DNA from: Pseudomonas sp. PDM18
GTDB taxonomy: Bacteria > Pseudomonadota > Gammaproteobacteria > Pseudomonadales > Pseudomonadaceae
Reading direction: 5' to 3'
Assembly (NCBI RefSeq): GCF_014852585.1
Contig: NZ_JACVBX010000011.1
Location: forward strand, 62,001 to 126,000
DNA: 64,000 nt
Positions within the stretch are counted from its first letter, which is position 1. Each line of letters opens with the position of its first letter. The position numbers and the translations under genes are program-made. Of the stretch, positions 49,633 to 64,000 are shown one piece after another. The notes beneath the pieces are model-generated. The model made no database searches. It was not told the origin of the DNA and was given only the letters and a program-made list of their open reading frames with translations.

Positions 49633-50988
49633 TCAGCGTATGCCCTGGTTCCTCAGCGCCGTCGGCGTGTAGTCGACGCTGCTGGCCTTGAAGCCGAACT
49701 CCACCTGGGACTTCTCCTGGTTGGTCAGGCCGGACACCAGGTAGCGACCATTGATGAGGTCATAGATGGCCTCCACGCCCAGCCAGGGAATCTGCTTGTC
49801 GTACAGCTGGGTCATGAAGCTCTCGCCGACGCGCCAGAGGGTGCCGCGGCCGTCATAGTGGTCGGCGAGCACGGCCTGCCAGGTGTCCTCGTCGAGGAAC
49901 AGCACGCGGCGTGCATAGATGTGTCGCTCGCCGGCGCGCAGGGTGCCTTCGACCTGCCAGACGCGGTGCTTCTCGTAGCGGACCAGGTCCTGATTGAGAT
50001 GGCCGGGTTTGACGAGATCGTCATAGCGGTGGGCGGTGGAGTCGAGGGCGAAGCTGTTGTAGGGCACATAGATTTCCTTTTTGCCCACCAGCTTCCAGTC
50101 GTAGCGGTCCGGCGCGCCGTTGAACATGTCCAGGTTGTCCGCGACACGCAGGCCATCGGAGGCCGGGTAGGGGCCGTCGTAGGCGATCTGCGGGGCGCGG
50201 CGCACGCGGCGCTGGCCAGCGTTGTAGACCCAGGCCATGCGTGGCTCGCGGACCTGGTCGAGGGTTTCGTGGACCAGCACCACATCGCCCGCCAGGCGCG
50301 CCGGCGCGGTGACCAGCTGCTTGTAGTAGAAGAGGACGTTGTTGTCCTTGTCCGGGCTGTAATCGGTGAGCTGGTCGCGATAGCTGAACTGCTGCTGGAA
50401 GTAGGTGGGCGTGTAGGTGCCGCTGGCGGTGGGCGTCGCCTGCACGTGCAGACGCTGGGCGCTGCCGCCGCGGTAGCGGGTGATGTGGTTCCACAACGCC
50501 TCGACGCCGCTCTGCGGAATGGGGAAGGGAATCGCCGTCTGGAAGTCCTTCAGGCCATTGCCGCCCTCGACCAGGCTGGCATGGCGCGCATTCGCGGACA
50601 CAGCTTGCAGTACCGCTGCCGGGTAGGTCGCCGAGCGATGCGCGGGATAGACGTTGAGGTGGTAATCCGGGTAGCGCTGCAGCATCGCCTGCTGGCCCGG
50701 CGTGAGGTTCGCCTCGTACTGCGCCATATTCTTCGCGGTGATGGTGAACAGCGGTTTTTCCGCGGCGAAGGGGTCGCTCAGGCGGCCGTCAGCGCCGCGA
50801 CTGCCTGCGTTGGCTGGCAGGCCGCCGTCCCAGGCGGGAATGCTGCCGTCGGCATTGCCGGCGCGCTCCGCACCCAGGGGCGTGAGGGTGTTGCCCAGTT
50901 TCGCCGCTTCCGTTTCGGGAACGGCAGCCTGGAGGTTGAAGGGCAGGGCCAGGAACAGCAGTGAAGCGCACGCAAGTTTCTTGTTCAT
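49633..50988 (-). CDS. DUF1329 family periplasmic/outer-membrane-associated protein
   Basis: A 451-residue DUF1329 protein, full length. Signal peptide MNKKLACASLLFLALPFNLQ ends near AA-VPETEAAKLG. LGNTLTPLGAERAGNADGSIPAW is the N-terminal hallmark, and WVYNAGQRRVRRAPQIAYDG and FNGAPDRYDWKLVGKKEIYV are core segments resembling the LolA/LolB-like fold. It nearly always pairs with DUF1302, as here with a 14-base gap. The pair is suspected to help move hydrophobic substrates through the outer membrane. It ends the leftward catabolic operon. Function unproven. Confidence 0.92.
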   Translation of the reverse strand: MNKKLACASLLFLALPFNLQAAVPETEAAKLGNTLTPLGAERAGNADGSIPAWDGGLPANAGSRGADGRLSDPFAAEKPLFTITAKNMAQYEANLTPGQQAMLQRYPDYHLNVYPAHRSATYPAAVLQAVSANARHASLVEGGNGLKDFQTAIPFPIPQSGVEALWNHITRYRGGSAQRLHVQATPTASGTYTPTYFQQQFSYRDQLTDYSPDKDNNVLFYYKQLVTAPARLAGDVVLVHETLDQVREPRMAWVYNAGQRRVRRAPQIAYDGPYPASDGLRVADNLDMFNGAPDRYDWKLVGKKEIYVPYNSFALDSTAHRYDDLVKPGHLNQDLVRYEKHRVWQVEGTLRAGERHIYARRVLFLDEDTWQAVLADHYDGRGTLWRVGESFMTQLYDKQIPWLGVEAIYDLINGRYLVSGLTNQEKSQVEFGFKASSVDYTPTALRNQGIR

Positions 50989-51002
50989 CGGTTTTTCTCC
51001 GC

Positions 51003-52853
51003 TTAGAACGACACGCCAAAGCTCAGGGCAAGGAAGTCCCGGTCGGTATTCACGTTGTACTTACCGCCGAAGAAGTTGGTGTAGGAAAGGCTCATGTTGT
51101 AGGTGTTGAGGTAGGTGCCATCGACGCCGATGCTGATCGCCCGCGCGCCCTGGTTGAAGCCCGGCTCCGGGGCGTAGCCGTGGACGTCGTGGGACCAGGC
51201 CAGGTTGGGTCGCACCGTGGCGCCGTCGATGAGGTCGGCGTATTCCCAGATCGCCCGCGTCTGGTAGCCCCAGGCGGTGCTGGTGACGAAGCCGGAGTCG
51301 TTGCAGTACTGCGGCGTGACGCTGTTGCCGCTGCACAAGCTGTTATCGGGGTACAACGCGCCCTGGCCGAACACCGGGCTGCGGCCATAGCGCAGCTCGT
51401 CATCGCCACCCAGGCCGCCGACGTGGGTGACGCCGATCTCGCCGATCAGGGTCAGGCGGTCGGCGCCCATCACCTGGTCGAAGAAGTGCGTGGCGGTGAC
51501 CTGCGCCTGGGTCACTTCCTTGCGCCGGTAGCCCTTGAGGACTGCGTCGTTGGCCGGTGCCGGCGCAGCGCCGTAGACCGGTGTGAGCGCCGGTACGCCC
51601 AGGGTCGAGGTGACCAGGTCGACCGGGTTGATCTGCACCGGCATGTTCGGCCGGTAGCTGATCTCGCCGGCCAGGGTGGTGCCGGTGGGCAGGCTGGTGC
51701 TGAAGCTCAGCCCGTAGAGCTGGATGTCCTCGGGGTAGTCGGCGAAGTATTGCGCGCTGCCTAGGCGGTAGGCCTGGGTGAGCTGCTGGCCAGCGCTGCT
51801 GCCGATCACTGCGCTGCAGAGCGTATTGGGGATGCCGAGGTTGCCGCACAGCTGCGGGGCGAAGCCCAGGTCGGCCGCGTGCGGGCCGCTGCGCACGCTG
51901 AGGTAGGGCTGGCGGCTGTGGTAGTTGATGAAGTAGCCGGCGAATTCGCTGTCCAGTTCCGGGGCGAACCAGCGCAGCGCCGCGCCCCACTGGCCGTTGT
52001 CGCGCGCTTCGTTGTCCTTGCCGCGAGGGATGACGATGCCTTCGTCGGTCAGGTTGATTCCGGCCGGCGCCAGGGCCTGTACCGCCAGCGGGTTCTGGTT
52101 GATTACCGGGCCGGCGGCGAGACCGTTGCAGCCGTCGGCCATCACGTCGGTGGTGGAGAAGAAGGTGCCGCAGTTGTCGATCACCGTCTTCTGCCACTGC
52201 AACTGGTAGAAGGCCTCGGCGGACAGGTGCTCGCTGAAGTTCTGCGAGACGTAGAACATGTTCACCGGGATCAGGCCTTCCTTGATCTCCGAGCCAGGCC
52301 GGCGGAAGGCGGCGACGTCGATCGGGTTGATGGCGTTGATGCCGCCCTGGATGAAGGTGCTCTCGCCCCAGCTCACCACCTGTTTGCCCAGACGCACGGT
52401 GCCGGGCAGGTCGCCGATGCTGTAGTTGTGGTAGAGGAAGGCATCGAGGAACTCGGCGCCCGACGCCTTGGCGCCTTCCTCGCGGCCGTGGTCGTCGATG
52501 TTCTTGAAGTGCAGGTCGTCGTCCTTGAGCTTGAAGTCGTACCAGTACTTGCCGCGGACGAAGGCGCCGGAGTCGCCGTACTTGAGTTCCAGGTCGTGGA
52601 TGCCCTTGAACACCTTGGAGAAGGTGTCGCCCTCGCGGAAGTTGCGCTTGCCGTCATCCGAGCTGTGGCTGTGCAACAGTGCGGCGTCGGCGTTGCGCAT
52701 GGCCCAGCTGGCGCCGACTGACAGGCTGGAGTCGAACTGCCCTTCGATTTCGCCAAGGGAGAAGGTGAAGGCCTGCGCGCCATTGCCGTAGAGGGCCAGG
52801 CCGATGGCGGTAGGTAGCGCGAGCAGGTGCAAGGCGGGTGATCTGCGGTTCAT
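51003..52853 (-). CDS. DUF1302 family outer-membrane protein
   Basis: A 616-residue DUF1302 protein with a signal peptide (MNRRSPALHLLALPTAIGLA ending AQA). The mature chain FTFSLGEIEGQFDSSLSVGA, many alternating beta strands and a final Phe (FLALSFGVSF) indicate an outer-membrane beta barrel. LPGTVRLGKQVVSWGESTFI and GGINAINPIDVAAFRRPGSE are the family signature. It may be the uptake channel for the compound degraded by this cluster. An AACAACAACAAG run lies 12 bases before the ATG, a likely Crc/Hfq site. Confidence 0.92.
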   Translation of the reverse strand: MNRRSPALHLLALPTAIGLALYGNGAQAFTFSLGEIEGQFDSSLSVGASWAMRNADAALLHSHSSDDGKRNFREGDTFSKVFKGIHDLELKYGDSGAFVRGKYWYDFKLKDDDLHFKNIDDHGREEGAKASGAEFLDAFLYHNYSIGDLPGTVRLGKQVVSWGESTFIQGGINAINPIDVAAFRRPGSEIKEGLIPVNMFYVSQNFSEHLSAEAFYQLQWQKTVIDNCGTFFSTTDVMADGCNGLAAGPVINQNPLAVQALAPAGINLTDEGIVIPRGKDNEARDNGQWGAALRWFAPELDSEFAGYFINYHSRQPYLSVRSGPHAADLGFAPQLCGNLGIPNTLCSAVIGSSAGQQLTQAYRLGSAQYFADYPEDIQLYGLSFSTSLPTGTTLAGEISYRPNMPVQINPVDLVTSTLGVPALTPVYGAAPAPANDAVLKGYRRKEVTQAQVTATHFFDQVMGADRLTLIGEIGVTHVGGLGGDDELRYGRSPVFGQGALYPDNSLCSGNSVTPQYCNDSGFVTSTAWGYQTRAIWEYADLIDGATVRPNLAWSHDVHGYAPEPGFNQGARAISIGVDGTYLNTYNMSLSYTNFFGGKYNVNTDRDFLALSFGVSF

Positions 52854-52865
52854 CTGAAACGACCT

Positions 52866-52880
52866 CTTGTTGTTGTTCTG
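52866..52880 (-). promoter_or_regulatory. Crc/Hfq-type motif before the DUF1302 gene
   Basis: Minus strand CAGAACAACAACAAG fits AAnAAnAA repeats and lies within 30 bases of the start codon, the position used for Hfq/Crc translational repression. Confidence 0.5.
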
Positions 52881-52967
52881 TCGTTTGCCGGCCCTTTTTC
52901 GGGCGCAGCGGTTCCTCTCTGGCCCGCGATCTGCGGGTCAGTTGATGAAGGTGGGGAGGTGGAGGCG

Positions 52968-53984
52968 CTAGAGGTTCAGGTCGAGGGCATCCTCCCCGAG
53001 CGTGATCTCGCCCGAATACTCATCGGCCATGCCGCTGACGAATATTCGCCGCGCGACGAAGTTATCCGGGGCGGGGATCAGGTGGGTCAGCAGCAGGTGG
53101 CGGACGCCCGCGCGCTGGGCCATGCGCGCCAGCTCCAGGGTGTCGGCGTGGTAGTCGAGCACGCGCACGGCCTGCGCGCCGCGATCTGGCTGCCCGGTGC
53201 GTTCCAGCGCGGCGGCGCCTTCGCGTACCAGATGGGCGTTGATCGCCTCGTGTACTACCAGGTCGGCATCGCGCATGGCTTCGAGGTAGCGCTCGCTGAC
53301 GCGGGTGTCGCCGCTGATGAACAGCTTCTTGCCCTGGTAACGCAGCACATAGCCATAGGCGGGTTCCACCGGGTGGTGATCGACACGGTAGGCGTCGATG
53401 GTCACGCCGCCCTGGTCATAGACGCGCACCGACTCCTGCCCCTCGGTGATATCCACCCGGCGCGGCTCGGCGAACGCCAGCTGCTTGTCGGTGGGCGGCA
53501 GGGCGTGGGCGCTGCGGTAGCCGGCGTCCTGGGCGTAGGCCATGGCCAGACCCTCGACGACCTGCTCGACGCCGGGCGGGCCGTAAACCAGAAAAGGCGT
53601 CTGCCGGCCGTAGATCCAGCTGTGGTTGATCAGCGCGCCGAGCCCATTGAAATGATCGGAATGCCAGTGGGTGATGAACACCTGGTTCAGCGCCTGCACT
53701 GGCACGTGGTTGGTCTCCAGGTTGCGCATGGCGTTCTCGCCGGCATCGAAGAGGAACAGCCGGCCGCCGGCAGCCACCAGGGTGCAGGCCTGGCCGCGGG
53801 TGGCGTTGGCCTGCGGTGTGCCGGTGCCGCAGAGGATGACGCGGATGGCGTTGCCGCCGTGGATCAGGGAATGGTCGGTGTGGTCCTTGACCATCGTATC
53901 CAGAGCCGCGTGCTGGATACGTTCGCAGCCGGGCAGGGCGAGGACGAGCAGCAGGGCAAGGGCTCGGGGCAGTCGGGGGCGCAT
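52968..53984 (-). CDS. Metallo-beta-lactamase-fold lipoprotein hydrolase
   Basis: A 338-residue protein with lipoprotein signal MRPRLPRALALLLVLALPGC (lipobox LPGC, Cys20). The hydrolase fold follows: ILCGTGTPQANATRGQAC, FLFDAGENAMRNL, the zinc motif HWHSDH at 106-111 (HxHxDH), ISGDTRVSERYLEAM and LLLTHLIPAPDN. It resembles the RNase Z/arylsulfatase (AtsA-like) branch, so a periplasmic sulfatase, lactonase or phosphodiesterase activity is possible. Sitting with DUF1302/DUF1329 it could process the substrate before or during uptake. AGGAAG precedes the ATG. Confidence 0.85.
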   Translation of the reverse strand: MRPRLPRALALLLVLALPGCERIQHAALDTMVKDHTDHSLIHGGNAIRVILCGTGTPQANATRGQACTLVAAGGRLFLFDAGENAMRNLETNHVPVQALNQVFITHWHSDHFNGLGALINHSWIYGRQTPFLVYGPPGVEQVVEGLAMAYAQDAGYRSAHALPPTDKQLAFAEPRRVDITEGQESVRVYDQGGVTIDAYRVDHHPVEPAYGYVLRYQGKKLFISGDTRVSERYLEAMRDADLVVHEAINAHLVREGAAALERTGQPDRGAQAVRVLDYHADTLELARMAQRAGVRHLLLTHLIPAPDNFVARRIFVSGMADEYSGEITLGEDALDLNL

Positions 53985-54001
53985 GGCACTTCCTTCGTTT
54001 T

Positions 54002-54011
54002 ATTGTTGTTT
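54002..54011 (-). promoter_or_regulatory. Crc/Hfq-type motif before the lipoprotein hydrolase gene
   Basis: Minus strand AAACAACAAT, 17 bases upstream of the start codon, matches the A-rich repeat pattern seen before several other genes of the cluster. Confidence 0.4.
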
Positions 54012-54043
54012 CGGGTGCGCGCGAGGCGGTGGTGCGATTGGTC

Positions 54044-55945
54044 TTAGCCGTGCCAGTCCACCGCGAAGCTGTAGCGGCCCAGCGCGCGGGCAAGTTCATC
54101 GCGTCCGGTGCCGGCGCGAACCTGCGCCACCAGCCCGCGGCGGGCATCCTGCACCACCTCCACGGCGATGCCGGCCAGACCCTGGTTGTCCGCTTCCTGA
54201 TGGATTACCCGGGCGATTTCGCGTTGCTGCAGCGCGGGCTTGAAGATCTTGCCCACCGGCGTGACCGGTAGGGCGTCGAGAATCTCGATGCGCTTGGGCA
54301 CCGCGGCGCGTTCGCTGATTCGCTGGTTGGCGAAGTCCAGCAGCGCGGCGCTGTCGGCACGCTGGCCGGCGGCGAGCTGCACGTAGGCCACGGGAATCTC
54401 GCCGGCATGCGGGTCGGGGCTGCCCACCGCGGCTACCAGAGCAACTGCCGGGTGCGCCTGCAGTGCCTCCTCGATCTGCTTCGGGTCGATGTTGTGGCCA
54501 CCGCGGATGATCAGTTCCTTCTTACGCCCGGTGAGCCAGAAGTAGCCCTGGGCGTCCTGTCGCCCGAGGTCGCCAGTGTTCAGCCAGCGCTGTCCGCCGA
54601 TGTCGATCCACAGGCCCTTGTTGTGGCTGTGGTCGAGGTAGCCGAGGAACACGTTCGGGCCGTGGATGGCGATCACCCCGACTTCGTCGGCTTCGGCGTC
54701 GCGCAGATAGTCGCCGTGGTCATCGAGGATCACCGCACGCATGCCCTGGTAGGCCAGGCGCAGCCCGATGGAGCCGATCGGGCGTTCGCCGGCGGGCGGG
54801 TTGCTCGATGAGACGCAGGCGCCTTCGGTGAGGCCGTAGCCTTCGAGGATGCGCACGCCTACCACGCGCTCGAACTCGCGGAACAGCTCCACCGGCATAG
54901 GCGCGGCGCCGCACAGCGCGTACTGCAGGCTGGACAGGTCATGCCCGGCAGTGGGTTGCTGCAGTAGCGCCGAATAGACGGTCGGCACGCCGGAAAAGAA
55001 GTTGATGCCAAAGTGCTGGACCATCGCCCAGAAGGACGCAATCACCCCCTCGCCGCGATAACCCTGGGGCGTGCCGATGATCACCCGGTCGCCGTGGGTC
55101 CAGGGCATAAGCCCGGTGACCAGCTGGCCGTTGACGTGGAACAGCGGCAGCCCGCAGAAGATCACTTGGCCGCTCTGGCGCGGCTGCAGGTTGGCTGCCA
55201 TGGCCCAGGCGTTGAAGACTTCCGAGCCGTGGCTGCGCTTGGCGATCTTCGGCAGACCGGTGGTGCCGCCGGTGCAGAAATAGGAAGAGGGCTCCTCCGC
55301 GCGGATCAACCGACCGCTGCTGAGCTGCTTGCCGTTCTCGCGGCGCATCAGGCGGCGCAGGTCGTGGATGCGCAGGCGCGGGTGGCGAGTGCGTTCGCGC
55401 CGGGCCATCCAGCGCAGCGCCAGGGACGCCACGCTGCCGACGTAGGGCGCCATGCTCACCCACAGCACATCGCGCACGCCGGGCAGGCTGTCGAGCTGGC
55501 TGGCCAGCTTGGGCCACAGGTCGCTGCCGGGTGTCGGCGCCAGGGTCACCACCAGCCGCGCGTTGGCGGCGCGCAACAGGTCGCCGATCTGCGCGGCCTC
55601 CAGCAGCGGGTTGATCGCCAGGACGATGCCCGCGGCCTCGCCACCCCAGATCACGAAGTGAGTCTCCGGCAGGTTCGGCAGCAGGAAGGCGACCACGTCC
55701 TTCGACCCGATGCCGAGCCGGTGGAAGGCGTTGGCGGCGCGGGTGATGTCGGCGAACAGCTCGGCGTAGGTCCAGTCGTGGGTGCGGCGGAAGTCATTCG
55801 CTTCGAGAAAGAAGCTCAGCGCCGTTGCCTGGCCGTGTTGCAGGGCGCAGCGCCGCAGCGCCTCGTAGGTGCTGGCGGGCAGTTCGCGGCGGGCCAGCGG
55901 GACGCCCTCCAGCGCCTGGATGTCGGCGAGGGTCTTCACGGCCAT
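54044..55945 (-). CDS. AMP-dependent acyl-CoA synthetase
   Basis: A 633-residue adenylate-forming ligase that activates a carboxylic acid to its CoA thioester. The P-loop is YFCTGGTTGLPKIAKRSH, followed by ILEGYGLTEGACVSSSNPP, the GDLGRQDAQGYFWLTGRKKE hinge and the catalytic Lys in VTPVGKIFKPAL. The long N-terminal part and low similarity to short benzoate ligases suggest a bulky aliphatic, alicyclic or aryl-alkanoic acid. The ATG overlaps the upstream FAH gene stop as TGATG. It is central to the operon and implies that at least one pathway intermediate is a CoA ester. Confidence 0.92.
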   Translation of the reverse strand: MAVKTLADIQALEGVPLARRELPASTYEALRRCALQHGQATALSFFLEANDFRRTHDWTYAELFADITRAANAFHRLGIGSKDVVAFLLPNLPETHFVIWGGEAAGIVLAINPLLEAAQIGDLLRAANARLVVTLAPTPGSDLWPKLASQLDSLPGVRDVLWVSMAPYVGSVASLALRWMARRERTRHPRLRIHDLRRLMRRENGKQLSSGRLIRAEEPSSYFCTGGTTGLPKIAKRSHGSEVFNAWAMAANLQPRQSGQVIFCGLPLFHVNGQLVTGLMPWTHGDRVIIGTPQGYRGEGVIASFWAMVQHFGINFFSGVPTVYSALLQQPTAGHDLSSLQYALCGAAPMPVELFREFERVVGVRILEGYGLTEGACVSSSNPPAGERPIGSIGLRLAYQGMRAVILDDHGDYLRDAEADEVGVIAIHGPNVFLGYLDHSHNKGLWIDIGGQRWLNTGDLGRQDAQGYFWLTGRKKELIIRGGHNIDPKQIEEALQAHPAVALVAAVGSPDPHAGEIPVAYVQLAAGQRADSAALLDFANQRISERAAVPKRIEILDALPVTPVGKIFKPALQQREIARVIHQEADNQGLAGIAVEVVQDARRGLVAQVRAGTGRDELARALGRYSFAVDWHG

Positions 55946-56898
55946 CAGGCTTGCTCCACCACGCGGTTGCGCTGCACGCCCAGGTCGATCACGCCGTCGG
56001 CGCTGCGGATGCTGGCTTCCACCACGTCACCCGCCTTCAGGTACTGGCTGCGACCTTCCTGGGTCTTCATGAAGGCCTGCCACTTGACTCGCTCCGGCAG
56101 CAGCGCGGCGATGCGCTGCTTGGCCGGGGAGGGAATCGACAGCGCGCAGCCGGCCGGCGTGCCGGTGGCGATCAGGTCGCCGGCGGCGAAGTCCTGCACG
56201 CCGGACAGCTCGCTCAGGGTCTCTGCCGGGCCGTGTACCAGGTTGGCGGTGCTGTCGCTCTGGCGCACTTCGCCGTTGACCGTCAGGCGCAGCTGCAGCT
56301 CCTTCAGGTAGCGCATGTCGCTCTTCTGCAACAGGCATAGGTACGGGCCGACCGGGCCGAAGGTGCGGAAGCTCTTGCCCTTGTAGAACTGCATCTGCGG
56401 AATCTGGATATCCCGCGCCGAGTAGTCGTTGACGATCACCACGCCGGCGATGAACTCGTGCAGATTGGCGTCGGTCACCGCGACCTTGCCGGTGATCTCG
56501 CGGCGCAGCACCAGGCCCAGCTCGATCTCGTAGTCGAGGAAGCGCACCTGGCGCGGTTTGATCAGGTCGCTGTCGGCGGCGACGATGCAGCTCTGCGCTT
56601 TGGTGAATATCATGTTGAAGTGCTTGGCGTCCGGGTCCACGCCCGACTCGATCATGTGCTGGCGGTAGTTGGCGCCCTGGCAGACGAACTGCTGGTCGCG
56701 GGTGATCGGCGAGAGCAGCCTGACCGAATCCAGTGCCAGTTCTTCGCCCTGCACTTGCGCCAGTTCCTCGACCGGAACCTGGCGGATCAGCTCGCCGGTG
56801 CTGGCGTAGCGGCCGGGCAGGGGGCTGATGCGCCCCTGGCGCAGCACGCCCCAGCGGGATTCGTTCTGGTGTTCGAAGTGGACAAGGTGCACGGGCAT
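55945..56898 (-). CDS. Fumarylacetoacetate-hydrolase-family protein
   Basis: A 317-residue FAH-fold enzyme. The metal ligands are seen in FLDYEIELGLVLRREITGKV (two Glu) and VIVNDYSARDIQIPQMQFYK (Asp). GKSFRTFGPVGPYLC and LIATGTPAGCALSIP form the active-site lid. Family members hydrolyse C-C bonds of acylpyruvates or decarboxylate/isomerise ring-cleavage products. Next to an extradiol dioxygenase it is the best candidate to cleave or process the ring-opened product. AGGAG precedes the ATG and CACAACAACG lies upstream. Confidence 0.92.
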   Translation of the reverse strand: MPVHLVHFEHQNESRWGVLRQGRISPLPGRYASTGELIRQVPVEELAQVQGEELALDSVRLLSPITRDQQFVCQGANYRQHMIESGVDPDAKHFNMIFTKAQSCIVAADSDLIKPRQVRFLDYEIELGLVLRREITGKVAVTDANLHEFIAGVVIVNDYSARDIQIPQMQFYKGKSFRTFGPVGPYLCLLQKSDMRYLKELQLRLTVNGEVRQSDSTANLVHGPAETLSELSGVQDFAAGDLIATGTPAGCALSIPSPAKQRIAALLPERVKWQAFMKTQEGRSQYLKAGDVVEASIRSADGVIDLGVQRNRVVEQA

Positions 56899-56942
56899 GG
56901 GAGCGACTCCTGGTACTGCGGTGGGCCGCGTCGGGCGGCGAT

Positions 56943-56957
56943 CGTTGTTGTGCTTTC
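56943..56957 (-). promoter_or_regulatory. Crc/Hfq-type motif before the FAH-family gene
   Basis: Minus strand GAAAGCACAACAACG, about 45 bases from the start, weakly matches AAnAAnAA. It lies just downstream of the dioxygenase stop. Confidence 0.35.
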
Positions 56958-56975
56958 TGTGGTGCTGCGGCGGGC

Positions 56976-58067
56976 CTAGCCGAACATCCGCGCCAGCGTG
57001 ATCAGCTTGCGCAGCGTCAGGTCCGGGCTGTGCCGCAGGTTGTGCAGCAGGATGCGCAGCTTCTGCAGGTTCATCGCCGGCTTGGTGAAGCTCTTGGGCA
57101 TGCGCTGGCCCCATTGCGACATGACTTCGGGGCTGACTTCGTGTACCCCGGTGGGGCGTTCGGCGGTGAACAGGTCGCCGTCGCAGTAGTGCTCGTGCTT
57201 GTCGCCCCACGGGTCCTGCCAGTAGTCGAAGATCTGGCTGCCGAGGATGTGCCGGCCCATGCCCCAGGCATGCTTCCAGCCGCGCTCGCGCAGCACCCGC
57301 TGGCCCATGCCGACGGCGTCGGCATCCACCACTTCGTAGGCGCTGTGGCTGTAGGCGGCCATGAAGCCCTGGGCGAGTGCGAGGGTGTGGTGGTCGGCCG
57401 GCGTGTCGCCCAGGTCCAGGCGCAGGAAGGTCACTGCCGGGGAACCGTCGGGCAGCACCTGCACGTCGCTGGGAATGAGACCGAAATGCTCGGTGTACCA
57501 GGCGCAGGTGGCCTGGTAGTCGGCCACTTCGAGCACCAAGTGGCCGAGCTTGATGATGTCCGGCGGTGCCACGGGCGGGCGCTGGGTGGCGTTGATCCGG
57601 GGTGCCTCGTCGACCTGGTTCAGCGGCAGCGCCGGACGATGTGCCCGTTCGCTGGCCGGCTGCTGGCCATGGATCGCCTCGACGACGAAGCCGGAAGGGT
57701 CGCGCAGGCTCACGCTTTCGCCGCCGCCGGGAGTGCTGAGTTTGTGGATTGGCGAGGCCCCCGGCAGGCGCGCCAGTTTTTGCAGGTCCTCGCGTGATTC
57801 CACGGCCAGGCCAAGGCCGACGAAGCGCGCCTGCGCCGCCTGCTGCACCCGATAGCAGTAGGGCGCAGGGCCAGTGCCGCGCAGGTACAGGCAGTCGGCA
57901 TCGCGACGCGCCAGGGTCAGGCCGAAGTCACCGAGAAAGCGTTCGGCTTGCTCCAGGTCCGGGCGTTCGAAGATCAGGTGGGCCAGGGCCCGAGCCTTGA
58001 CCGTCGGCTGCGGATGGCGAGCCGGTTGCGGCGTTGCCAGGGAAATAGAGGAGTGCTGACGGCTCAT
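56976..58067 (-). CDS. Extradiol (catechol 2,3-type) dioxygenase, VOC family
   Basis: A 363-residue two-domain type I extradiol dioxygenase. Fe(II) ligands can be assigned as His176 (KLGHLVLEV), His241 (SHSAYEVVD) and Glu292 (DKHEHYCDG), and second-sphere His273 is in GMGRHILGSQIFDYW. The N-terminal domain (about 25-135) is the inactive half. This places it with meta-cleavage enzymes acting on substituted catechols, but the substrate loops differ from those I know in BphC, HpaD or XylE. A basic C-terminal extension of about 60 residues ending LRKLITLARMFG is unusual. It follows the TetR gene by 79 bases. Confidence 0.85.
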   Translation of the reverse strand: MSRQHSSISLATPQPARHPQPTVKARALAHLIFERPDLEQAERFLGDFGLTLARRDADCLYLRGTGPAPYCYRVQQAAQARFVGLGLAVESREDLQKLARLPGASPIHKLSTPGGGESVSLRDPSGFVVEAIHGQQPASERAHRPALPLNQVDEAPRINATQRPPVAPPDIIKLGHLVLEVADYQATCAWYTEHFGLIPSDVQVLPDGSPAVTFLRLDLGDTPADHHTLALAQGFMAAYSHSAYEVVDADAVGMGQRVLRERGWKHAWGMGRHILGSQIFDYWQDPWGDKHEHYCDGDLFTAERPTGVHEVSPEVMSQWGQRMPKSFTKPAMNLQKLRILLHNLRHSPDLTLRKLITLARMFG

Positions 58068-58080
58068 GTTTGTTGTTCTC
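58068..58080 (-). promoter_or_regulatory. Crc/Hfq-type motif at the dioxygenase start
   Basis: Minus strand GAGAACAACAAAC directly abuts the ATG of the dioxygenase gene and overlaps its ribosome site (GGAG), the classic position for Crc/Hfq repression. Confidence 0.55.
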
Positions 58081-58146
58081 CGCGGCTTTCGTCAGGCAAG
58101 GCTTCGCCATCGCCCCTGAGTAGGAGCGTTGGCAGGTTCGGTTGGA

Positions 58147-58761
58147 TCAGTCCGCGGGTGGCAGCGGTGGCAACTCACCGGTGGACAGGCTGCGCGCTTC
58201 TTCCGACGCCACGCCGAGCGCGCGCAGGGTCAACTCCGCGGCGTCGCTGCCGGCCTGGCGCCAGGTCCGGTGGCCCTCCAGGACCAGGAAGATGGAGCTG
58301 AGCACGGAGCCGGCGATCATCGAGATCACCGACGGCAGCTGCTCCTGGCGGAAGCTGTAGCGGCCACCCGCGAGCCCGCTGAGCAGGTCGGCAGTGGGCG
58401 GGCCGAACCACATGCCGCGCAGCGATTCCTCGCTCATCGAGAAGCGGCTGATGAAGGCGCCCCAGTGCGGTTCCTCGTGGGCCCGGCGTATGAAGAAGCG
58501 GATGCCGTTGGCCAGGCGCAGGGCCGGGTCCGACGTCTCGCCGAAGCTCTTCACCACGCGCTGGTGCATCTCCGCCGACAGGTGGCTGGCCACATGCTGG
58601 AAGAGGTCGTCGATGGACTGCAGGTTGTTGTAGATGGTGCCCCGGGCCACACCGGCCTCCTGCGCCAGGTCGCTGATATTCACCTGGCTGGCGCCCTTCT
58701 CGGCGAACAGGCGCAGGGCGGCCTGGTGGATACGGCGTTGTACGGGGTTGAGGGTTTCCAT
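58147..58761 (-). CDS. TetR-family transcriptional regulator
   Basis: A 204-residue TetR-type repressor. The N-terminal helix-turn-helix domain is at about residues 5-55: VQRRIHQAALRLFAEKGASQ, VNISDLAQEAGVARGTIYNN. The C-terminal ligand domain is divergent. It is the first gene of the leftward catabolic operon and divergent from the two flavoprotein hydroxylases. Two 18-bp palindromes in the intervening region are its likely operators, so it probably controls both operons and itself. The inducer may be the substrate or an early intermediate. Confidence 0.93.
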   Translation of the reverse strand: METLNPVQRRIHQAALRLFAEKGASQVNISDLAQEAGVARGTIYNNLQSIDDLFQHVASHLSAEMHQRVVKSFGETSDPALRLANGIRFFIRRAHEEPHWGAFISRFSMSEESLRGMWFGPPTADLLSGLAGGRYSFRQEQLPSVISMIAGSVLSSIFLVLEGHRTWRQAGSDAAELTLRALGVASEEARSLSTGELPPLPPAD

Positions 58762-58794
58762 GAAGAAATGGCTCCAAGGTCAAGCTTGAAGCGA

Positions 58795-58812
58795 TTGAAC
58801 ACGTGCGTTCAA
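58795..58812. promoter_or_regulatory. TetR operator candidate O1
   Basis: TTGAACACGTGCGTTCAA is an 18-bp palindrome with one mismatched pair, 34 bases upstream of the TetR start codon. It shares all but three bases with O2. Confidence 0.75.
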
Positions 58813-58972
58813 AATAAGTCAACAGGGTCTATTGATCGTTATTTTCTCAAATTTCTTCCCGGCTTCTCCCGTCTTTCGTGCCCTCCCGGCCCTTGGACGG
58901 TTCTTCGGAAAGGCTCTGGCTGGCGGCTTTGGCTAGGAAAATCGAAGCAAAATTGATCTCCAGTTGACTGAA

Positions 58973-58990
58973 TTGAACACTGGTGTTCAA
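58973..58990. promoter_or_regulatory. TetR operator candidate O2
   Basis: TTGAACACTGGTGTTCAA is a perfect 18-bp palindrome 34 bases upstream of the first hydroxylase start. Its match to O1 on the other side of the divergent region is the strongest regulatory signal in the window. Confidence 0.8.
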
Positions 58991-59024
58991 AATATTTCGG
59001 CGATGTCTTCCCCTGGAGCAAGCA

Positions 59025-60650
59025 ATGCAACAGTCCACAACAACAACGACAACTTGTGACGTGATCATCGTCGGACTCGGCCCCACCGGGGCGGTGCTGG
59101 CCAACCTGCTGGGCCGCTATGGCTGGTCGGTGGTCGGCCTGGAGCGCGACGAGGACCTTTACTATGCCCCGCGTGCCGTGCATTTCGACGACGAGATCAT
59201 GCGCATCTTCCAGTTCGCCGGCCTGGCCGACGACATCGGCCGCACCAGCGAATCCTTCACCGACATGGAGATCATTCTGCGTCCCGGACGCAAGCCGGTG
59301 ACCCGCTCGCGCATCGGCAGCCAGGACCGGCGCTACGGCCATCCTGGCGCCTGGTGGTTCCATCAGCCGACCCTGGAGCGGCATTTCCACGACGGCCTCA
59401 AGCGCTACCCCAATATCACCCCGGTGTACGGCTGCCGTGTCACCGGCGTCGAGCAGGATGCCGAAGGCGTGCGCGCCACCGCCGTGCAGCGGGACGGCAG
59501 CGAACGGGTGTTCCAGGGGCGCTACCTGATCGGCTGTGATGGCGGCAAGAGTTTCGTCCGCCGCGAGGCTGGGCTGCGCCTGGAGTCAGCGGATTTCGAC
59601 GAGGCCTGGGTGGTGGTCGATACCAAGACCCGCTCCGGTGAGAAGGATGCGCTGCTGCCGGCCAACCACTCGCAGGTGTGCAACCCGGCGCAGCCAGTGA
59701 CTTACGTGCCGATGGCCGGCCCGTACTACGAATGGCAGTTCATGGTCACCGGCGGCAAGTCCGAGCGCGAGGCCACCGATCCCTACCTGGTGCGCCAGCA
59801 ACTGCGCGACTTCGTCGACCTCGACAAGATCGAGATCACCCGCATCGCCTACTACAAGTTCCATGGCCTGTGGGCCAATGACTGGCGCAATGGCCGGATC
59901 ATTCTCGCTGGCGACTCGGCGCACCAGATGCCGCCGTTCCTCGGCCAGGGCATGTGCTCGGGCGTGCGCGATGCCAACAGCCTGTGCTGGCGGCTGGACA
60001 TGGTGCTGCGCGGCGCCGCGCGGGAGAAACTGTTCGACGACTATGAGGCCGAACGCTCGGCCCATGTGCGCGAAATCATCAATGGCGCGATGTTCCTCGG
60101 CAACGTTATCCAGACTCGCCACCGCGGCGTGGCCTTCCTGCGCGACTGGCTGCTGTTCCGTATCGCCGGGATGCTGCCTTTCGCCAACAAGGCGTTCGCC
60201 GACAAGGCCAACCGCAAGAAACCGTTGGCTGCCGGTTTCTGCGGCTGGGGGCACCGGCTGTCCGGTCACCTGGCCCTGCAGCCGAAAGTGCTGCGCGAGG
60301 AGGAGAGCGAGCGCGTGCTGCTCGACGAAGCCTTGGGCCACGGCTTTGCCTTGCTCGCCCGGCGCGGTTGCCTCGATAGCCAGCGCGCGCAATTGGAGCG
60401 ACTGGCGCAACAGGTGGACCTGCGCGTGCTGGAGTTCGCCGAAGATCCGGCCGGCCCGGTGCTGGGCGACCCCACCGGCGCGCTGCAGGACTGGTTCGAC
60501 GAAGCCGACATGGACTTCGTGCTGATCCGTCCTGATCGCTACGTCTTCGACGCTGGCCGCGCTGACCAGCTGGGCCGCGTCGCCGAGCGCTTCCTCGCCG
60601 GCCTGTCGCTGGTAAGCCAGAGCCATCAACCCCAAGGAGTGGCGGCATGA
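59025..60650 (+). CDS. FAD-dependent aromatic hydroxylase, MhpA/PheA type
   Basis: A 541-residue class A flavoprotein monooxygenase. FAD motif DVIIVGLGPTGAVLANLLGR is at residues 11-30, YLIGCDGGKSFVRREAG is the DG motif, and LAGDSAHQMPPFLGQGMCSG the FAD-ribityl site. Similarity in layout is to MhpA (3-(3-hydroxyphenyl)propionate hydroxylase), with a C-terminal thioredoxin-like domain from about 440. It would hydroxylate a phenolic ring next to an existing OH and prepare it for the dioxygenase. GGAG lies before the ATG, and a CAACAACAACGACAAC run is inside its first codons. It overlaps the next gene by ATGA. Confidence 0.92.
   Translation: MQQSTTTTTTCDVIIVGLGPTGAVLANLLGRYGWSVVGLERDEDLYYAPRAVHFDDEIMRIFQFAGLADDIGRTSESFTDMEIILRPGRKPVTRSRIGSQDRRYGHPGAWWFHQPTLERHFHDGLKRYPNITPVYGCRVTGVEQDAEGVRATAVQRDGSERVFQGRYLIGCDGGKSFVRREAGLRLESADFDEAWVVVDTKTRSGEKDALLPANHSQVCNPAQPVTYVPMAGPYYEWQFMVTGGKSEREATDPYLVRQQLRDFVDLDKIEITRIAYYKFHGLWANDWRNGRIILAGDSAHQMPPFLGQGMCSGVRDANSLCWRLDMVLRGAAREKLFDDYEAERSAHVREIINGAMFLGNVIQTRHRGVAFLRDWLLFRIAGMLPFANKAFADKANRKKPLAAGFCGWGHRLSGHLALQPKVLREEESERVLLDEALGHGFALLARRGCLDSQRAQLERLAQQVDLRVLEFAEDPAGPVLGDPTGALQDWFDEADMDFVLIRPDRYVFDAGRADQLGRVAERFLAGLSLVSQSHQPQGVAA
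59036..59053 (+). promoter_or_regulatory. Crc/Hfq-type motif in the first hydroxylase codons
   Basis: CCACAACAACAACGACAA encodes a Thr run (codons 5-10) while giving five AAC repeats close behind the start codon, a position also used by Crc/Hfq targets. Confidence 0.45.
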
Positions 60651-62293
60651 TCGACACCCCCGTTCTCATCAGCGGCGCCGGCCCGGTAGGCCTAACCCTG
60701 GCGCTGAACCTCAGCCGCCTGGGCATTCGCTCGGTGCTGCTCAACGACCGTCGGCAGACCACCACGCACCCCAAGCTGGACGTAGTGAACTGCCGCTCGA
60801 TGGAAATCTTCCGCCAGCTGGGCCTGGCCGAGCGCATCCGTACCGCCGGCAACCCGACCGATGCCAACCAGTACTCGGCAATGGCGGCAAGTGCCAGCGG
60901 GCCGTTCTACAGCGTGATGTCCGACCGCCACCTGATCTACCAGCCGGTCAACCAGGCCGCGCAGGCCATCCGTGCCTGCCGCGACGGCAGCCTGCCCCTG
61001 GAGTCGATGCAGCGCATCGCGCAGATGCATCTGGAACCGGTGTTGATGGCCGAAGTGGAGGCCGACCCGAACATCGAGTTGCGCATGGGCTGGCGCCTGT
61101 ATGGCTTCGAACAGAGCTCCACCGGCGTGGTGGCGATGGCCCACGAAGTGGATAGCGGCGAAGCGCAGCAGTTCTTCGCCCAATACCTGGTCGGCTGCGA
61201 CGGTCCCAACAGCCGCGTGCGCAATTTCCTCAATATCGATTACGACGGCACCCGCGACCTGGTCGGCGAGCTGTTCATCATCCACCTGCGCTCCGACGAG
61301 ATCGCCGGGCTGTTCCCGAACAACCAGCCCTATTGGCACACCTGGCTGACACGGCCGGGATTCGCCGGCCTGCTGGTCTCGCCCGACGCCAGCCGCAACG
61401 ACTACGTGCTGCACCGGCCCTTCGCGCCGCGCCCCGGCGAGTCGCTGGAGAGCGTGGTGGACGCCGCTCTGGGCTGCAAGCTGCGCTATGAAATCGTCCA
61501 GTCCGGTCCCTGGCGTCCACAGTTCTTGGTGGCTCGCTCGTTCGGCCGGCAGCGGGCATTCATTGCCGGCGACGCTACCCACCAGTTCATGCCCACTGGC
61601 GGCCTGGGGATGAACACCGGCGTGGCCGAGGCGCATAACCTGGCCTGGAAGCTGGCGGCCTGCCTGGCCGGCTGGGGCGGCCCGCGCCTGCTGGAGAGCT
61701 ACGAGGCGGAGCGCCTACCCGTTGCCCGGCGCAACCGCGACCACGTGAAGAAATGTGCGGCGGCGACCTTTGAGGCGCAGATGCGGCGTGACGAGGCGCT
61801 GCTCGCCCAGGGGGCGGGCGGCGATGCGGCGCGCGAGGCAGCCGGGCGTGAGTTCGAGCGCAAGGTCTCGCGGCTCTACGAGTCGCTTGGCGTGGAGATC
61901 GGCTACCGCTACCACGGCTCGCCGGCCATCGAGACGGACACCGCCAGCGAGCCGGCTTACGAGGAGATTCGCTACACGCCCACCACCTGGGCCGGTGCGC
62001 GTCTGCCCAGCGCGTTCCGCGAGGATGGCACGGCGGTCTTCGACCAGTTGGCGCTGGGCGGCTATACCCTGCTGGCCTTCGATATGGACACCAAGAGTTA
62101 CGCACCGCTGCAGGAGGCCGCCGAGGAATGCCGCGTGCCGCTGAGCGTTCTGCCGATCCATGAGAAGTACCTGGCCAACCTGTACGAGCGGCGCTTCGTG
62201 CTGGTGCGCCCGGACCAGCATGTGTGCTGGCGCGGCGACAGCCTGCCGGTCGATTGCTATTCGCTGTTCAACCGTCTGCGCGGAGCCCGCTGA
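60647..62293 (+). CDS. FAD-dependent monooxygenase (second flavoprotein hydroxylase)
   Basis: A 548-residue class A flavoprotein monooxygenase. VLISGAGPVGLTLALNLSRL is the FAD Rossmann motif, YLVGCDGPNSRVRNFL the DG motif, and AGDATHQFMPTGGLGMNTGV the second FAD site. It is clearly different from its neighbour, so the two are not a recent duplication and likely act on different steps or positions. The GGLGMNTG form is shared with phenol, resorcinol and polyketide hydroxylases. The C-terminal domain (about 420-540) has a thioredoxin-like look. Translation is coupled to the first hydroxylase by ATGA. Confidence 0.92.
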   Translation: MIDTPVLISGAGPVGLTLALNLSRLGIRSVLLNDRRQTTTHPKLDVVNCRSMEIFRQLGLAERIRTAGNPTDANQYSAMAASASGPFYSVMSDRHLIYQPVNQAAQAIRACRDGSLPLESMQRIAQMHLEPVLMAEVEADPNIELRMGWRLYGFEQSSTGVVAMAHEVDSGEAQQFFAQYLVGCDGPNSRVRNFLNIDYDGTRDLVGELFIIHLRSDEIAGLFPNNQPYWHTWLTRPGFAGLLVSPDASRNDYVLHRPFAPRPGESLESVVDAALGCKLRYEIVQSGPWRPQFLVARSFGRQRAFIAGDATHQFMPTGGLGMNTGVAEAHNLAWKLAACLAGWGGPRLLESYEAERLPVARRNRDHVKKCAAATFEAQMRRDEALLAQGAGGDAAREAAGREFERKVSRLYESLGVEIGYRYHGSPAIETDTASEPAYEEIRYTPTTWAGARLPSAFREDGTAVFDQLALGGYTLLAFDMDTKSYAPLQEAAEECRVPLSVLPIHEKYLANLYERRFVLVRPDQHVCWRGDSLPVDCYSLFNRLRGAR

Positions 62294-62295
62294 CC

Positions 62296-62676
62296 ATGAG
62301 CCTGTTCATCGATTCGCTGAAACTGCGCCTGCTCCTGCTGGCGTCCATCCCGCTGCTGCGCCGGGCGGAACGCCGCTCGGCGCGCCTGCGCGAACTGCTT
62401 CACGAGGACTCCTTCGTGCTGCAGATCCGCACCGGCGATGGTGTCGGCGGCTATTACCAGCTGCGCGGCGGCGTGTTCAGCCTGCACCGTGGCGAGCACC
62501 GCCGGCCAGACTTCATCCAGCACTGGCAACGCAGCGCAGATGCGCTGCGGGTGATGCTCAGCCGCGACGAAACCGACATGCTGCGCGCCGTCGAAGGCGG
62601 GCAGTGCCAGCTGCAGGGACGCTTCGCGGTGGCCCTGTGGTTCAACGAAGCCATGAAGATCGCCCGGGCTGCCTAG
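62296..62676 (+). CDS. Small SCP2-like (sterol-carrier-fold) protein
   Basis: A 126-residue protein. The segment YYQLRGGVFSLHRGEHRRPD, QRSADALRVMLSRDETDMLR and QLQGRFAVALWFNEAMKIAR follow the SCP2 pattern (a strand pair, then helix, then a hydrophobic C-terminal helix). An N-terminal amphipathic helix (LKLRLLLLASIPLLRRAERR) could touch the membrane. It may bind a lipophilic pathway intermediate and present it to the hydroxylases. It begins two bases after the second hydroxylase stop. The family call rests on pattern only. Confidence 0.65.
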   Translation: MSLFIDSLKLRLLLLASIPLLRRAERRSARLRELLHEDSFVLQIRTGDGVGGYYQLRGGVFSLHRGEHRRPDFIQHWQRSADALRVMLSRDETDMLRAVEGGQCQLQGRFAVALWFNEAMKIARAA

Positions 62677-62689
62677 CCCCTCACGGATC

Positions 62690-62705
62690 ACAAGGACAAC
62701 AAGAA
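62690..62705 (+). promoter_or_regulatory. Crc/Hfq-type motif before the ACMSD-like gene
   Basis: ACAAGGACAACAAGAA merges into the ATG of the amidohydrolase and combines its ribosome site (AAGGA) with AAnAAnAA repeats. Confidence 0.55.
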
Positions 62706-63778
62706 TGACGATCCTACAAGGTCGAGTCGACGTGCACCATCACATCATCCCGCCGGCCTTCGTCGAGGTCATGGCGAAAAAAGGCCTGGACATGGTCGCC
62801 GGCGCGCCGCTGCCGAAATGGTCGCCGCAGAAGTCCATCGAGGTGATGGACCTCAACGGCATCCAGACCGCCATCACCTCTCTGTCGGCGCCGGGCGTGC
62901 ATTTCGGCGGGGGAGTAGGGCAGGCCCGCGAGCTGGCGATGCGCTGCAACGACTTCGCCGCGCAGATGCGGGGCGATTATCCGGGGCGCTTCGGCAACTT
63001 CGCCGTGCTGCCCACGCCCTTCACCGAGGCTGCCTGCCGCGAAGCGATCCGCGCGCTGGACGAGCTGAAGGCCGAGGGCGTGGTGCTGCTGGGCAGCACC
63101 GACGGGGTGTTCCTTGGCGACGAGCGTTTCGACGAGCTGATGGCCGAGCTGAACCGCCGCGCCGCCATCGTCTTCGTCCACCCGAACATGCACGAAAGCA
63201 GCGAGAAACTCGGCATCGCCGCGCCGGGCTTCCTGGTCGAATTCCTCTGCGACACCACCCGTGCGGCAGTGAACCTGATCCTCACCGGCACCCTGGAGAA
63301 GTACCCGCGCATCCGCTGGATTCTCGCCCACGGCGGAGGCTTCCTGCCCTACGTGGCCTGGCGCGTGTCCCTGGCCAACGCCTTGCCGCAGTTCCAGGAC
63401 AAGGCCCCGCAGGGAGTGATGACCTACCTCAAGCGTTTCTACTTCGACACGGCGCTGTCGCCTTCGCGCTACTCCATGGCGGCGCTCAAGGAGTTGGTGG
63501 AGCCCTCGCAGATCCTCTTCGGCAGCGACTTCCCCTTCGCGCCGGCGCCGGTCACCACCCTGACCTGCCAGACTCTGGAGCAGAACACCTTGTGGACCGA
63601 TGCACAGCGCTATGGGATCAATCGTGGGCACGCGCTGAGCCTGTTCCCGCAGTATCGCGATGCCCACGAGCAGGTGGTGGCCGCGCCGATCCATAGTGGT
63701 GAGTCGTTCGCCAGCCGGCTGAAGCGCAGCCTTACCCGTCCGCTGGGCGCCTACGTCGAGCGCGTACGCAGCCGCTGA
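62705..63778 (+). CDS. ACMSD-like amidohydrolase-2 family decarboxylase/hydrolase
   Basis: A 357-residue metal-dependent enzyme of the amidohydrolase-2 group. The metal motif HxH is in VDVHHHIIPPAF (His11, His13), further ligands are in FVHPNMHESSEKL and ILAHGGGFLPYVAWR, and the catalytic Asp is in LFGSDFPFAPAPVTT. This group includes aminocarboxymuconate semialdehyde decarboxylase and gamma-resorcylate-type decarboxylases. In a ring-cleavage cluster, decarboxylation of a hydroxybenzoate or of a cleavage product is likely. The last about 30 residues form a basic tail. Confidence 0.9.
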   Translation: MTILQGRVDVHHHIIPPAFVEVMAKKGLDMVAGAPLPKWSPQKSIEVMDLNGIQTAITSLSAPGVHFGGGVGQARELAMRCNDFAAQMRGDYPGRFGNFAVLPTPFTEAACREAIRALDELKAEGVVLLGSTDGVFLGDERFDELMAELNRRAAIVFVHPNMHESSEKLGIAAPGFLVEFLCDTTRAAVNLILTGTLEKYPRIRWILAHGGGFLPYVAWRVSLANALPQFQDKAPQGVMTYLKRFYFDTALSPSRYSMAALKELVEPSQILFGSDFPFAPAPVTTLTCQTLEQNTLWTDAQRYGINRGHALSLFPQYRDAHEQVVAAPIHSGESFASRLKRSLTRPLGAYVERVRSR

Positions 63779-63807
63779 GTCAGGACCATTCCCGGAGACG
63801 CGAATCC

Positions 63808-64000
63808 ATGAGCACCCTGTTCGAACCCTTGCGCCTGCCCAACGGGCAGGTGATCCGCAACCGCATCGCCAAGGCGGCGATGGAAGAAAACCTCGCCGAT
63901 GCCGACCACGCGCCCGGCGATACGCTGCTGAGTCTCTACCAGCGCTGGGCCGAGGGCGGTGCCGGGCTGATCATCACCGGCAACGTGATGGTCGACCGCC
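63808..64000 (+). CDS. NADH:flavin oxidoreductase/Old Yellow Enzyme family, 5' part only
   Basis: The first 64 codons are present before the window ends. MSTLFEPLRLPNGQVIRNRI and AAMEENLADADHAPGD, then AEGGAGLIITGNVMVDR, are the start of an Old Yellow Enzyme barrel (FMN-binding, reduces activated C=C bonds). GGAGACGCGAATCC precedes the ATG, 29 bases after the amidohydrolase stop, so it belongs to the rightward operon. It may reduce an enone or dienoate intermediate. Confidence 0.88.
   Translation, partial: MSTLFEPLRLPNGQVIRNRIAKAAMEENLADADHAPGDTLLSLYQRWAEGGAGLIITGNVMVDR

Follow-up and report, generated by a model that had tools for sequence, protein, structure and literature searches.

Which compound is broken down by the gene cluster at positions 49,633 to 64,000 of the window—the 64,000-nucleotide stretch of Pseudomonas sp. 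PDM18 analysed here (C2:62001-126000; the genome measures 6.43 Mb and comprises 65 contigs)? The original prediction, made from the letters of the window, described two operons around one TetR regulator for a lipophilic substrate and held that the gene set matches no standard named pathway. Here, we propose that the cluster degrades resorcinols with a lipophilic alkyl chain—5-alkylresorcinols, which are phenolic lipids of plants and microbes—and give this reading, which is built on sequence comparison, a probability of roughly 0.6. The resorcinol ring is its firmer part, followed by the alkyl chain.

The seven leftward and five rightward genes that had been placed around the regulator, here TetR1, are present at about the positions given for them. 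Continuing past position 64,000, as had been advised, revealed the end of the gene for an Old Yellow Enzyme (OYE), a second regulator (TetR2), and a third hydroxylase (HYD3) that uses flavin adenine dinucleotide (FAD); hence, the cluster extends beyond the window. Its core genes and some of their neighbours are:

49633..50988, minus strand: DUF1329 protein that pairs with the DUF1302 barrel (Pfam, 508.5 bits; beside DUF1302 in relatives)
51003..52853, minus strand: DUF1302 outer-membrane barrel, in the channel slot behind FadD (Pfam, 570.9 bits; slot counts)
54044..55945, minus strand: acyl-CoA synthetase (FadD), AMP-binding, PRK07529 subfamily (NCBIfam, 932.8 bits, cut-off 632)
55945..56898, minus strand: FAA-hydrolase-family C-C hydrolase (FAH; Pfam, 162 bits; motifs; PDB relatives including acylpyruvase)
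56976..58067, minus strand: type I extradiol ring-cleavage dioxygenase (EDO), an extradiol/VOC protein (catalytic residues conserved)
58147..58761, minus strand: TetR1, predicted repressor (Pfam TetR_N and TetR_C_40)
65045-65701, minus strand, outside the window (1045-1701 of L006): TetR2 (from the sequence past 64000)
65757-67337, minus strand, outside the window (1757-3337 of L006): HYD3, third FAD_binding_3 hydroxylase, core (from the sequence past 64000)

For FAH, a start near 56898 is more probable than the 57210 at which the longest frame begins. HYD3 is followed by a DUF599 gene and, at a greater distance, by htpG.

The original prediction had proposed to look for the same gene order elsewhere, and the core indeed recurs, with variations, in 97 distinct loci; the gene set is hence not a product of chance. 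These loci derive from 30 loci of genomes of the same family and 80 further ones (the best 80 of at least 574 stretches that encode an EDO relative; at least 594 matched the pattern), minus five paralogous EDO/FAH loci and eight duplicates. The recurrent unit consists of HYD3, EDO, FAH, FadD, and TetR, with the outer-membrane channel gene as a further core member; FadD is found in 85 of the 97 loci. Within this set, the FAD hydroxylase, the type I extradiol enzyme, and the FAA-family hydrolase form one conserved unit, whose FAD hydroxylase is replaced in a minority of genomes. Across 198 family genomes, orthologues of EDO (at least 72% identity) occur in 25 and HYD3 in 24, with both together in 23 (Fisher p = 1e-26, uncorrected for relatedness). 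Some EDO relative is present at E 0.001 in 86 of these genomes, and at E 1e-60 or better in 29 of 390 genomes of the order. Gene set, conservation, and co-occurrence are, like the operators and the replacement of HYD3 treated below, direct observations on these genomes.

The enzymes themselves fit a ring-cleaving route. In EDO, H176, H226/227, H241, H273, Y282, and E292 align with the BphC/HsaC-type chain 2zi8, and the catalytic residues are invariant in 18 orthologues. We take H176, H241, and E292 to be the 2-His-1-Glu iron site and H226/227, H273, and Y282 to be the second-sphere His, His, and Tyr; by residue content, EDO is thus a type I extradiol dioxygenase. FAH bears the ExE and NDYSARD motifs with E124/E126 and D158, which presumably are functional residues.

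We infer the substrate, the order of the reactions, their products, and the signals of the regulators. The substrate would enter through a hydrophobic outer-membrane channel—here DUF1302/DUF1329. HYD3, or a molybdenum (Mo) enzyme in some relatives, would then add a third hydroxyl group and convert the 5-alkylresorcinol to a 2,3,5-trihydroxyalkylbenzene. The ring of this product would be cleaved by EDO beside the carbon that bears the alkyl chain, forming a 2,4,6-trioxoalkanoate. FAH would act as trioxoalkanoate hydrolase and release a fatty acid and acetylpyruvate; its substrate would be a beta-diketo acid, as expected for a ring with a third hydroxyl group. Because such a cut on a long alkyl chain would free a fatty acid, the adjacency of the acyl-CoA synthetase finds an explanation: it would activate the fatty acid to the acyl-CoA for beta-oxidation.

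Chemistry of this kind has precedents, and the claim that the cluster matches no pathway does not hold for its core. The orcinol pathway of Pseudomonas, reportedly worked out by Chapman and Ribbons, is said to run from a 5-alkyl resorcinol ring via a trihydroxy intermediate and ring cleavage to acyl-pyruvate hydrolases. This pathway differs from the cluster by a methyl side chain that ends as acetate, and it is not known to include lipid uptake or a CoA ligase. An orcinol hydroxylase group is listed in AromaDeg (PMC4656828). For HcdABC of Pseudomonas mandelii 7HK4, the source describes 3-(2,4-dihydroxyphenyl)propionate as the substrate, a hydroxylase that yields 3-(2,3,5-trihydroxyphenyl)propionate, subsequent extradiol cleavage, and a FAA-family hydrolase proposed to release succinate and 2-hydroxy-4-oxopentenoate, the last products not having been identified in that work (PMC6222606). 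By description, the system resembles the cluster in its FAD hydroxylase giving a 2,3,5-trihydroxyphenyl compound, its extradiol dioxygenase, and a FAA-family hydrolase proposed to lead to acetylpyruvate. However, it comprises three genes and serves a short polar side chain thought to end as succinate, and the parts of the source consulted do not mention an acyl-CoA synthetase, a channel, a Mo enzyme, or a TetR regulator. In the orcinol and HcdABC type of chemistry that the core fits, the FAA-family hydrolase takes the place of MhpC. The homoprotocatechuate pathway (HpaD, HpaG/HpcE) also combines a distantly similar type I extradiol enzyme with a FAA-family hydrolase; it was rejected as a reading of the cluster on profile scores (HpaD, 52 against a cut-off of 321; HpaG-C, 103 against 276).

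What points to a resorcinol ring in particular is the hydroxylase slot, because in some relatives HYD3 is replaced by a Mo enzyme of the pyrogallol/resorcinol-hydroxylase kind. Among 80 loci of about 21 kb, two proteins occur in 18 each: a molybdopterin protein with PF21423, a domain resembling the large subunit of pyrogallol hydroxytransferase, and a 4Fe-4S protein. Compared with the PDB, the one large subunit tested is nearest to pyrogallol hydroxytransferase (902 bits; next, dimethyl sulfoxide reductase, 234 bits), as is the one small subunit tested (199 bits; next, 62 bits). With both subunits nearest to this enzyme and PF21423 present, the Mo enzyme is by sequence of the RhL/PgtL type. 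Within the superfamily, RhL and PgtL share one Ser-ligand group, and RhL converts resorcinol to hydroxyhydroquinone (PMC10100899). The known RhLS and pyrogallol hydroxytransferase serve anaerobic respiration or fermentation (PMC10100899); neither is known to serve a pathway with an extradiol dioxygenase. By analogy, the replacement suggests that HYD3 acts on a resorcinol as well.

The 80 loci divide into 56 with HYD3 only, 17 with the Mo enzyme only, one with both, and six with neither. Because HYD3 may sit beyond the fetched stretch, whole genomes were searched, covering 16 of the 17 Mo-only cases (L132 was left out). Twelve of the 16 lack a HYD3 orthologue—seven hold nothing at E 1e-60 and five only relatives of 36 to 39%—and comprise 11 Burkholderiaceae and one Pseudomonas (L064); it is for these 12 genomes only that we claim the replacement, as read from their sequences. 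A strict exclusion between HYD3 and the Mo enzyme was dropped, as the genome searches placed HYD3 just past the fetched stretch in several Pseudomonas. Among the loci with neither, the genomes of L072 and L079 hold HYD3 (64%), and L060, L098, L103, and L108 hold only relatives of 35 to 40%. The Mo subunit was also sought in the genomes of 20 HYD3-bearing and two HYD3-less loci and was found in two of the 22, both HYD3-bearing. On an EDO tree of 96 rows (without L052, whose EDO is not intact), the 13 Mo-only rows—including L132 with its unsearched genome—require five state changes, all five forced by well-supported branches. Hence, there were repeated gains or losses, of which at least one fell in Pseudomonas and the others in Burkholderiaceae.

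Traces of the ousted enzyme might still be visible. In Burkholderia multivorans the genes are ordered TetR-HYD-EDO-FAH-FadD-OmpW, and in B. stagnalis TetR-hypothetical (79 aa)-EDO-FAH-FadD-OmpW-MoL-MoS, where 21 residues of the 79-aa protein resemble the FAD-binding start of the hydroxylase (48%, pairwise E 0.002). A search with seven hydroxylase queries covered the 900 bases that precede the EDO match in 14 Mo-bearing Burkholderiales loci; set against 60 dinucleotide shuffles, it returned matches in six (L115, L123, L128, L131, L138, L144), on the forward strand and with 30.8 to 73.6 bits. All six lie within the last 281 bases before EDO, and each scores above 60 of 60 shuffles; the clearest, in L128, spans 69 residues of the hydroxylase C-terminal end directly before EDO (E 2e-19). 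We read these sequence matches as remnants of HYD3 orthologues that were ousted by the Mo enzyme.

The lipophilic chain, in turn, is indicated because FadL, DUF1302, or OmpW fill the same slot behind the CoA ligase. All three are outer-membrane barrels associated with hydrophobic compounds, and they are unrelated to each other. Defining the slot as the same strand within 1.7 kb behind FadD, the 97 loci divide into 29 with FadL/TodX, 27 with DUF1302, 19 with OmpW, 10 with none of these, and 12 with no FadD. A channel gene thus fills the slot in 75 of the 85 FadD loci, two channel types share one slot in 0 of 97 loci, and a gene for a metallo-β-lactamase (MBL)-fold protein stands between FadD and channel in few loci, the window included (10 of 105 before duplicate removal). 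The lipophilic substrate of the original prediction is supported by this interchange of channel types in one slot. A DUF1302/DUF1329 pair of P. putida is, moreover, reported to be essential on Tween 20 (PMC10866462).

Several observations weigh against this picture. EDO, FAH, and HYD3 are all far from any characterised sequence in the libraries compared: the best PDB match reaches 60 bits for EDO, 117 bits for FAH (with acylpyruvase among its relatives), and 112 bits for HYD3 (2-hydroxybiphenyl 3-monooxygenases), and the predicted EDO structure (AlphaFold) is poor, with a mean pLDDT of 59.8. The core is not complete everywhere, as 12 of the 97 loci show no FadD, 10 of the 85 FadD loci have no channel gene in the slot, genomes G060 and G146 hold EDO without HYD3, and G141 holds HYD3 with an EDO fragment only. 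The replacement of HYD3 is blurred by the four of the 16 Mo genomes that also carry a HYD3 orthologue (57 to 68% identity), by the four of four Mo-bearing genomes of the 198-genome sample that also have HYD3—one of them the same strain as L080—and by G582 and G593, which carry both; remnants were not found in the 900 bases before EDO in eight of the 14 Mo-bearing Burkholderiales loci. Finally, the ring could be a pyrogallol, because the Mo enzyme class includes trihydroxybenzene transhydroxylases.

Could the same genes serve another substrate? Among the cluster genes of the window and the 20 annotated neighbour families, the other families being unannotated, no MhpC-type alpha/beta hydrolase, no alpha/beta-fold meta-cleavage hydrolase, and no demethylase was recognised. 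Hydroxylation of a 3-alkylphenol (cardanol, for example) to a 3-alkylcatechol, followed by ordinary catechol-type cleavage, would suit the 2-hydroxybiphenyl 3-monooxygenases among the best matches of HYD3. However, a catechol-type product normally needs an MhpC-type hydrolase, whereas the core conserves a FAA-family hydrolase, and those relatives of the Mo enzyme that are known act on di- and trihydroxybenzenes; this makes a 3-alkylphenol very unlikely. A steroid, alicyclic, or terpenoid substrate, the wider class of the original prediction, offers an equally slim prospect: OYE, MBL proteins, and DUF1302/DUF1329 do occur around such pathways, but their genes are accessory or replaceable here, the core hydroxylase is swapped for a resorcinol/pyrogallol-type Mo enzyme in some relatives, and the meta-cleavage hydrolase is missing from the families named above.

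Closer to the proposed chemistry is the possibility that FadD acts first, on a resorcinol whose side chain is an alkanoic acid and is shortened by beta-oxidation before ring cleavage, so that FAH frees no fatty-acid tail. FadD families also activate aryl alkanoates, and HcdABC handles a dihydroxyphenyl propionate; however, the position of FadD directly behind FAH and of the channels behind FadD fits lipophilic uptake and fatty-acid activation at least as well, and we regard this order as improbable. Also quite unlikely is sorgoleone or another lipid benzoquinone or hydroquinone, which would be reduced and demethylated before the same core cleaves its ring. In its favor, the core is present in Burkholderia and Pseudomonas, and sorgoleone-consuming Acinetobacter, Burkholderia, and Pseudomonas are reported in a preprint that may describe a related cluster. 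Against it, a catabolic gene cluster for sorgoleone was not found in the full-text library searched, which does not cover preprints, and the demethylase is the activity not recognised above; a PhyH-type oxygenase lies near the cluster in 10 of 80 loci.

How is the proposed alkylresorcinol pathway switched on? The palindrome TTGAAC-N6-GTTCAA stands at 58795-58812 and 58973-58990, ahead of TetR1 and HYD1, and genome-wide the zero-mismatch matches to TTGAACACNNGNGTTCAA are only these two sites. The remaining features of the cluster are:

52968..53984, minus strand: MBL-fold metallohydrolase with a lipoprotein-like signal and HWHSDH motif, accessory, in 10 of 97 loci (Pfam, motif, presence table)
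58795..58812, no strand: predicted TetR1 operator copy 1, upstream of the TetR1-EDO operon, TTGAACACGTGCGTTCAA (conserved palindrome)
58973..58990, no strand: predicted TetR1 operator copy 2, upstream of the HYD1 operon, TTGAACACTGGTGTTCAA (conserved palindrome)
59025..60650, plus strand: HYD1, MhpA-like FAD_binding_3 hydroxylase, accessory, with an alternative in-frame GTG at 58983 (Pfam, 210 bits; FAD motifs)
60647..62293, plus strand: HYD2, PRK06126-type FAD_binding_3 hydroxylase, accessory (Pfam/NCBIfam profiles; genome counts)
62296..62676, plus strand: conserved 126-aa protein, possibly SCP2-like (weak; hhalign)
62705..63778, plus strand: Amidohydro_2 protein, ACMSD/gamma-resorcylate-decarboxylase-like (Pfam, 99 bits; PDB matches)
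63808..65037, plus strand, the window holding the start up to 64000: OYE, Oxidored_FMN (open reading frame past the window end)

Among 58 loci with a TetR1 of at least 55% identity, 53 carry a site with no more than one mismatch in the 100 bases upstream of it, and 34 have two sites within 260 bases; over the 97 loci, 99 sites stand against one for the reversed pattern. Facing the second operator copy is HYD1, OYE, or the amidohydrolase, whereas Aquabacterium and some others have HYD3 itself in this position. With a conserved palindrome ahead of each operon, the idea of one TetR governing both operons gains support: TetR1 very probably governs the operon of EDO as well as the accessory operon that diverges from it, and would do so as a repressor. 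HYD3 is probably under the control of TetR2, encoded beside it. The TetR1 operator is absent from the stretch before HYD3 in this genome, and in many Pseudomonas TetR2 adjoins HYD3 with a palindrome CAATATTGA...TCAATATTG before the latter; the CAATATTGA-type palindrome is degenerate in this genome. A third TetR1-like site with one mismatch (G000:C55:115064) precedes a 5-formyltetrahydrofolate cyclo-ligase-like gene, as read from the open reading frame, and was set aside as chance. In L044 and L103, at about 14-17 kb, a second TetR1-like gene accompanies two amidohydrolases and has its own pair of operator-like palindromes.

HYD1 and HYD2, on which the earlier weighing of hydroxylases had centered, are present but accessory; the conserved hydroxylase is HYD3, which sits next to a TetR of its own past the window end. 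The leading genes of the rightward operon are restricted to close relatives, and HYD2 occurs in 11 of the 198 family genomes, each of which belongs to the 25 that carry an EDO orthologue. Because HYD2 is limited to close relatives and always comes with an EDO orthologue, the rightward operon appears to be part of the pathway and outside its core. It probably widens the intake, for example, by decarboxylation of alkylresorcylic acids, extra hydroxylation, or reduction. The Amidohydro_2 protein matches 2f6k (136 bits), gamma-resorcylate decarboxylase (82 bits), and ACMSD (75 bits) in the PDB, and its action on alkylresorcylic acids is our guess. The SCP2-like carrier of the original prediction fares poorly: the 126-aa protein has no match to PF02036 (SCP2) in a Pfam search, is absent from the five SCP2 matches of the genome, and aligns to these five members with an hhalign probability of 19% together and 46% for the best single one, where genuine members against the rest span 6.6-83%. 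In the MBL-fold protein, LPGC near the N-terminus, read from the sequence, resembles a lipobox and departs from the strict consensus.

Some loci vary this layout. Mosaic clusters are seen in L037, where TetR1 and HYD1-HYD2-ACMSD are 95-97% like the window and EDO/FAH/FadD 76-88%, and in L031, where the core is 90+% like the window, DUF1302 36%, and DUF1329 48%. L048 (12632-18670), the same strain as L080, carries the Mo hydroxylase, a second EDO (43%), and a second FAH (47%) beside HYD3 and core; in some Pseudomonas, this arrangement perhaps forms a second ring-cleavage branch. The span matched by the Mo large subunit in G582 and G593 holds one TGA, maybe a start-site artefact or decay, and the EDO of L052 (G141) is a 29-residue fragment beside FAH, FadD, and DUF1302, possibly an effect of assembly or decay. 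At other places in Pseudomonas-family genomes, the paralogous loci L053-L057 hold an additional pair of EDO (38-46% identity) and FAH (31-36% identity); in their fetched stretches, relatives of HYD3, FadD, or a channel were not seen.

Cereal bran, roots, and soil microbes are rich in alkylresorcinols and related phenolic lipids. A gene cluster for the bacterial breakdown of these lipids was not recognised in the full-text library searched, which leaves most subscription papers and all preprints outside, and what we describe here is probably an undescribed, conserved modular resorcinol-lipid pathway—a variant of orcinol/HcdABC chemistry with a long tail. Tentatively, and at a little short of even odds, its modules might be drawn as an EDO/FAH/CoA-ligase core, a hydroxylase slot filled by a flavoenzyme or a Mo enzyme with fossil scraps, and a channel slot for which FadL, DUF1302, and OmpW are alternatives. 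If the alkylresorcinol reading is true, the EDO and HYD3 copies of many genomes, now labelled 'VOC family protein' and 'hydroxyphenylpropionate hydroxylase', would acquire a testable function. DUF1302/DUF1329 would then be tied to a substrate class, and the exchange of a flavin hydroxylase for a molybdenum one within one operon would make a clean case of functional replacement. If the modular reading is true as well, a pathway built on an oxygen-requiring dioxygenase would start with an enzyme type known from anaerobes, which uses water and would thereby save oxygen and NADH.

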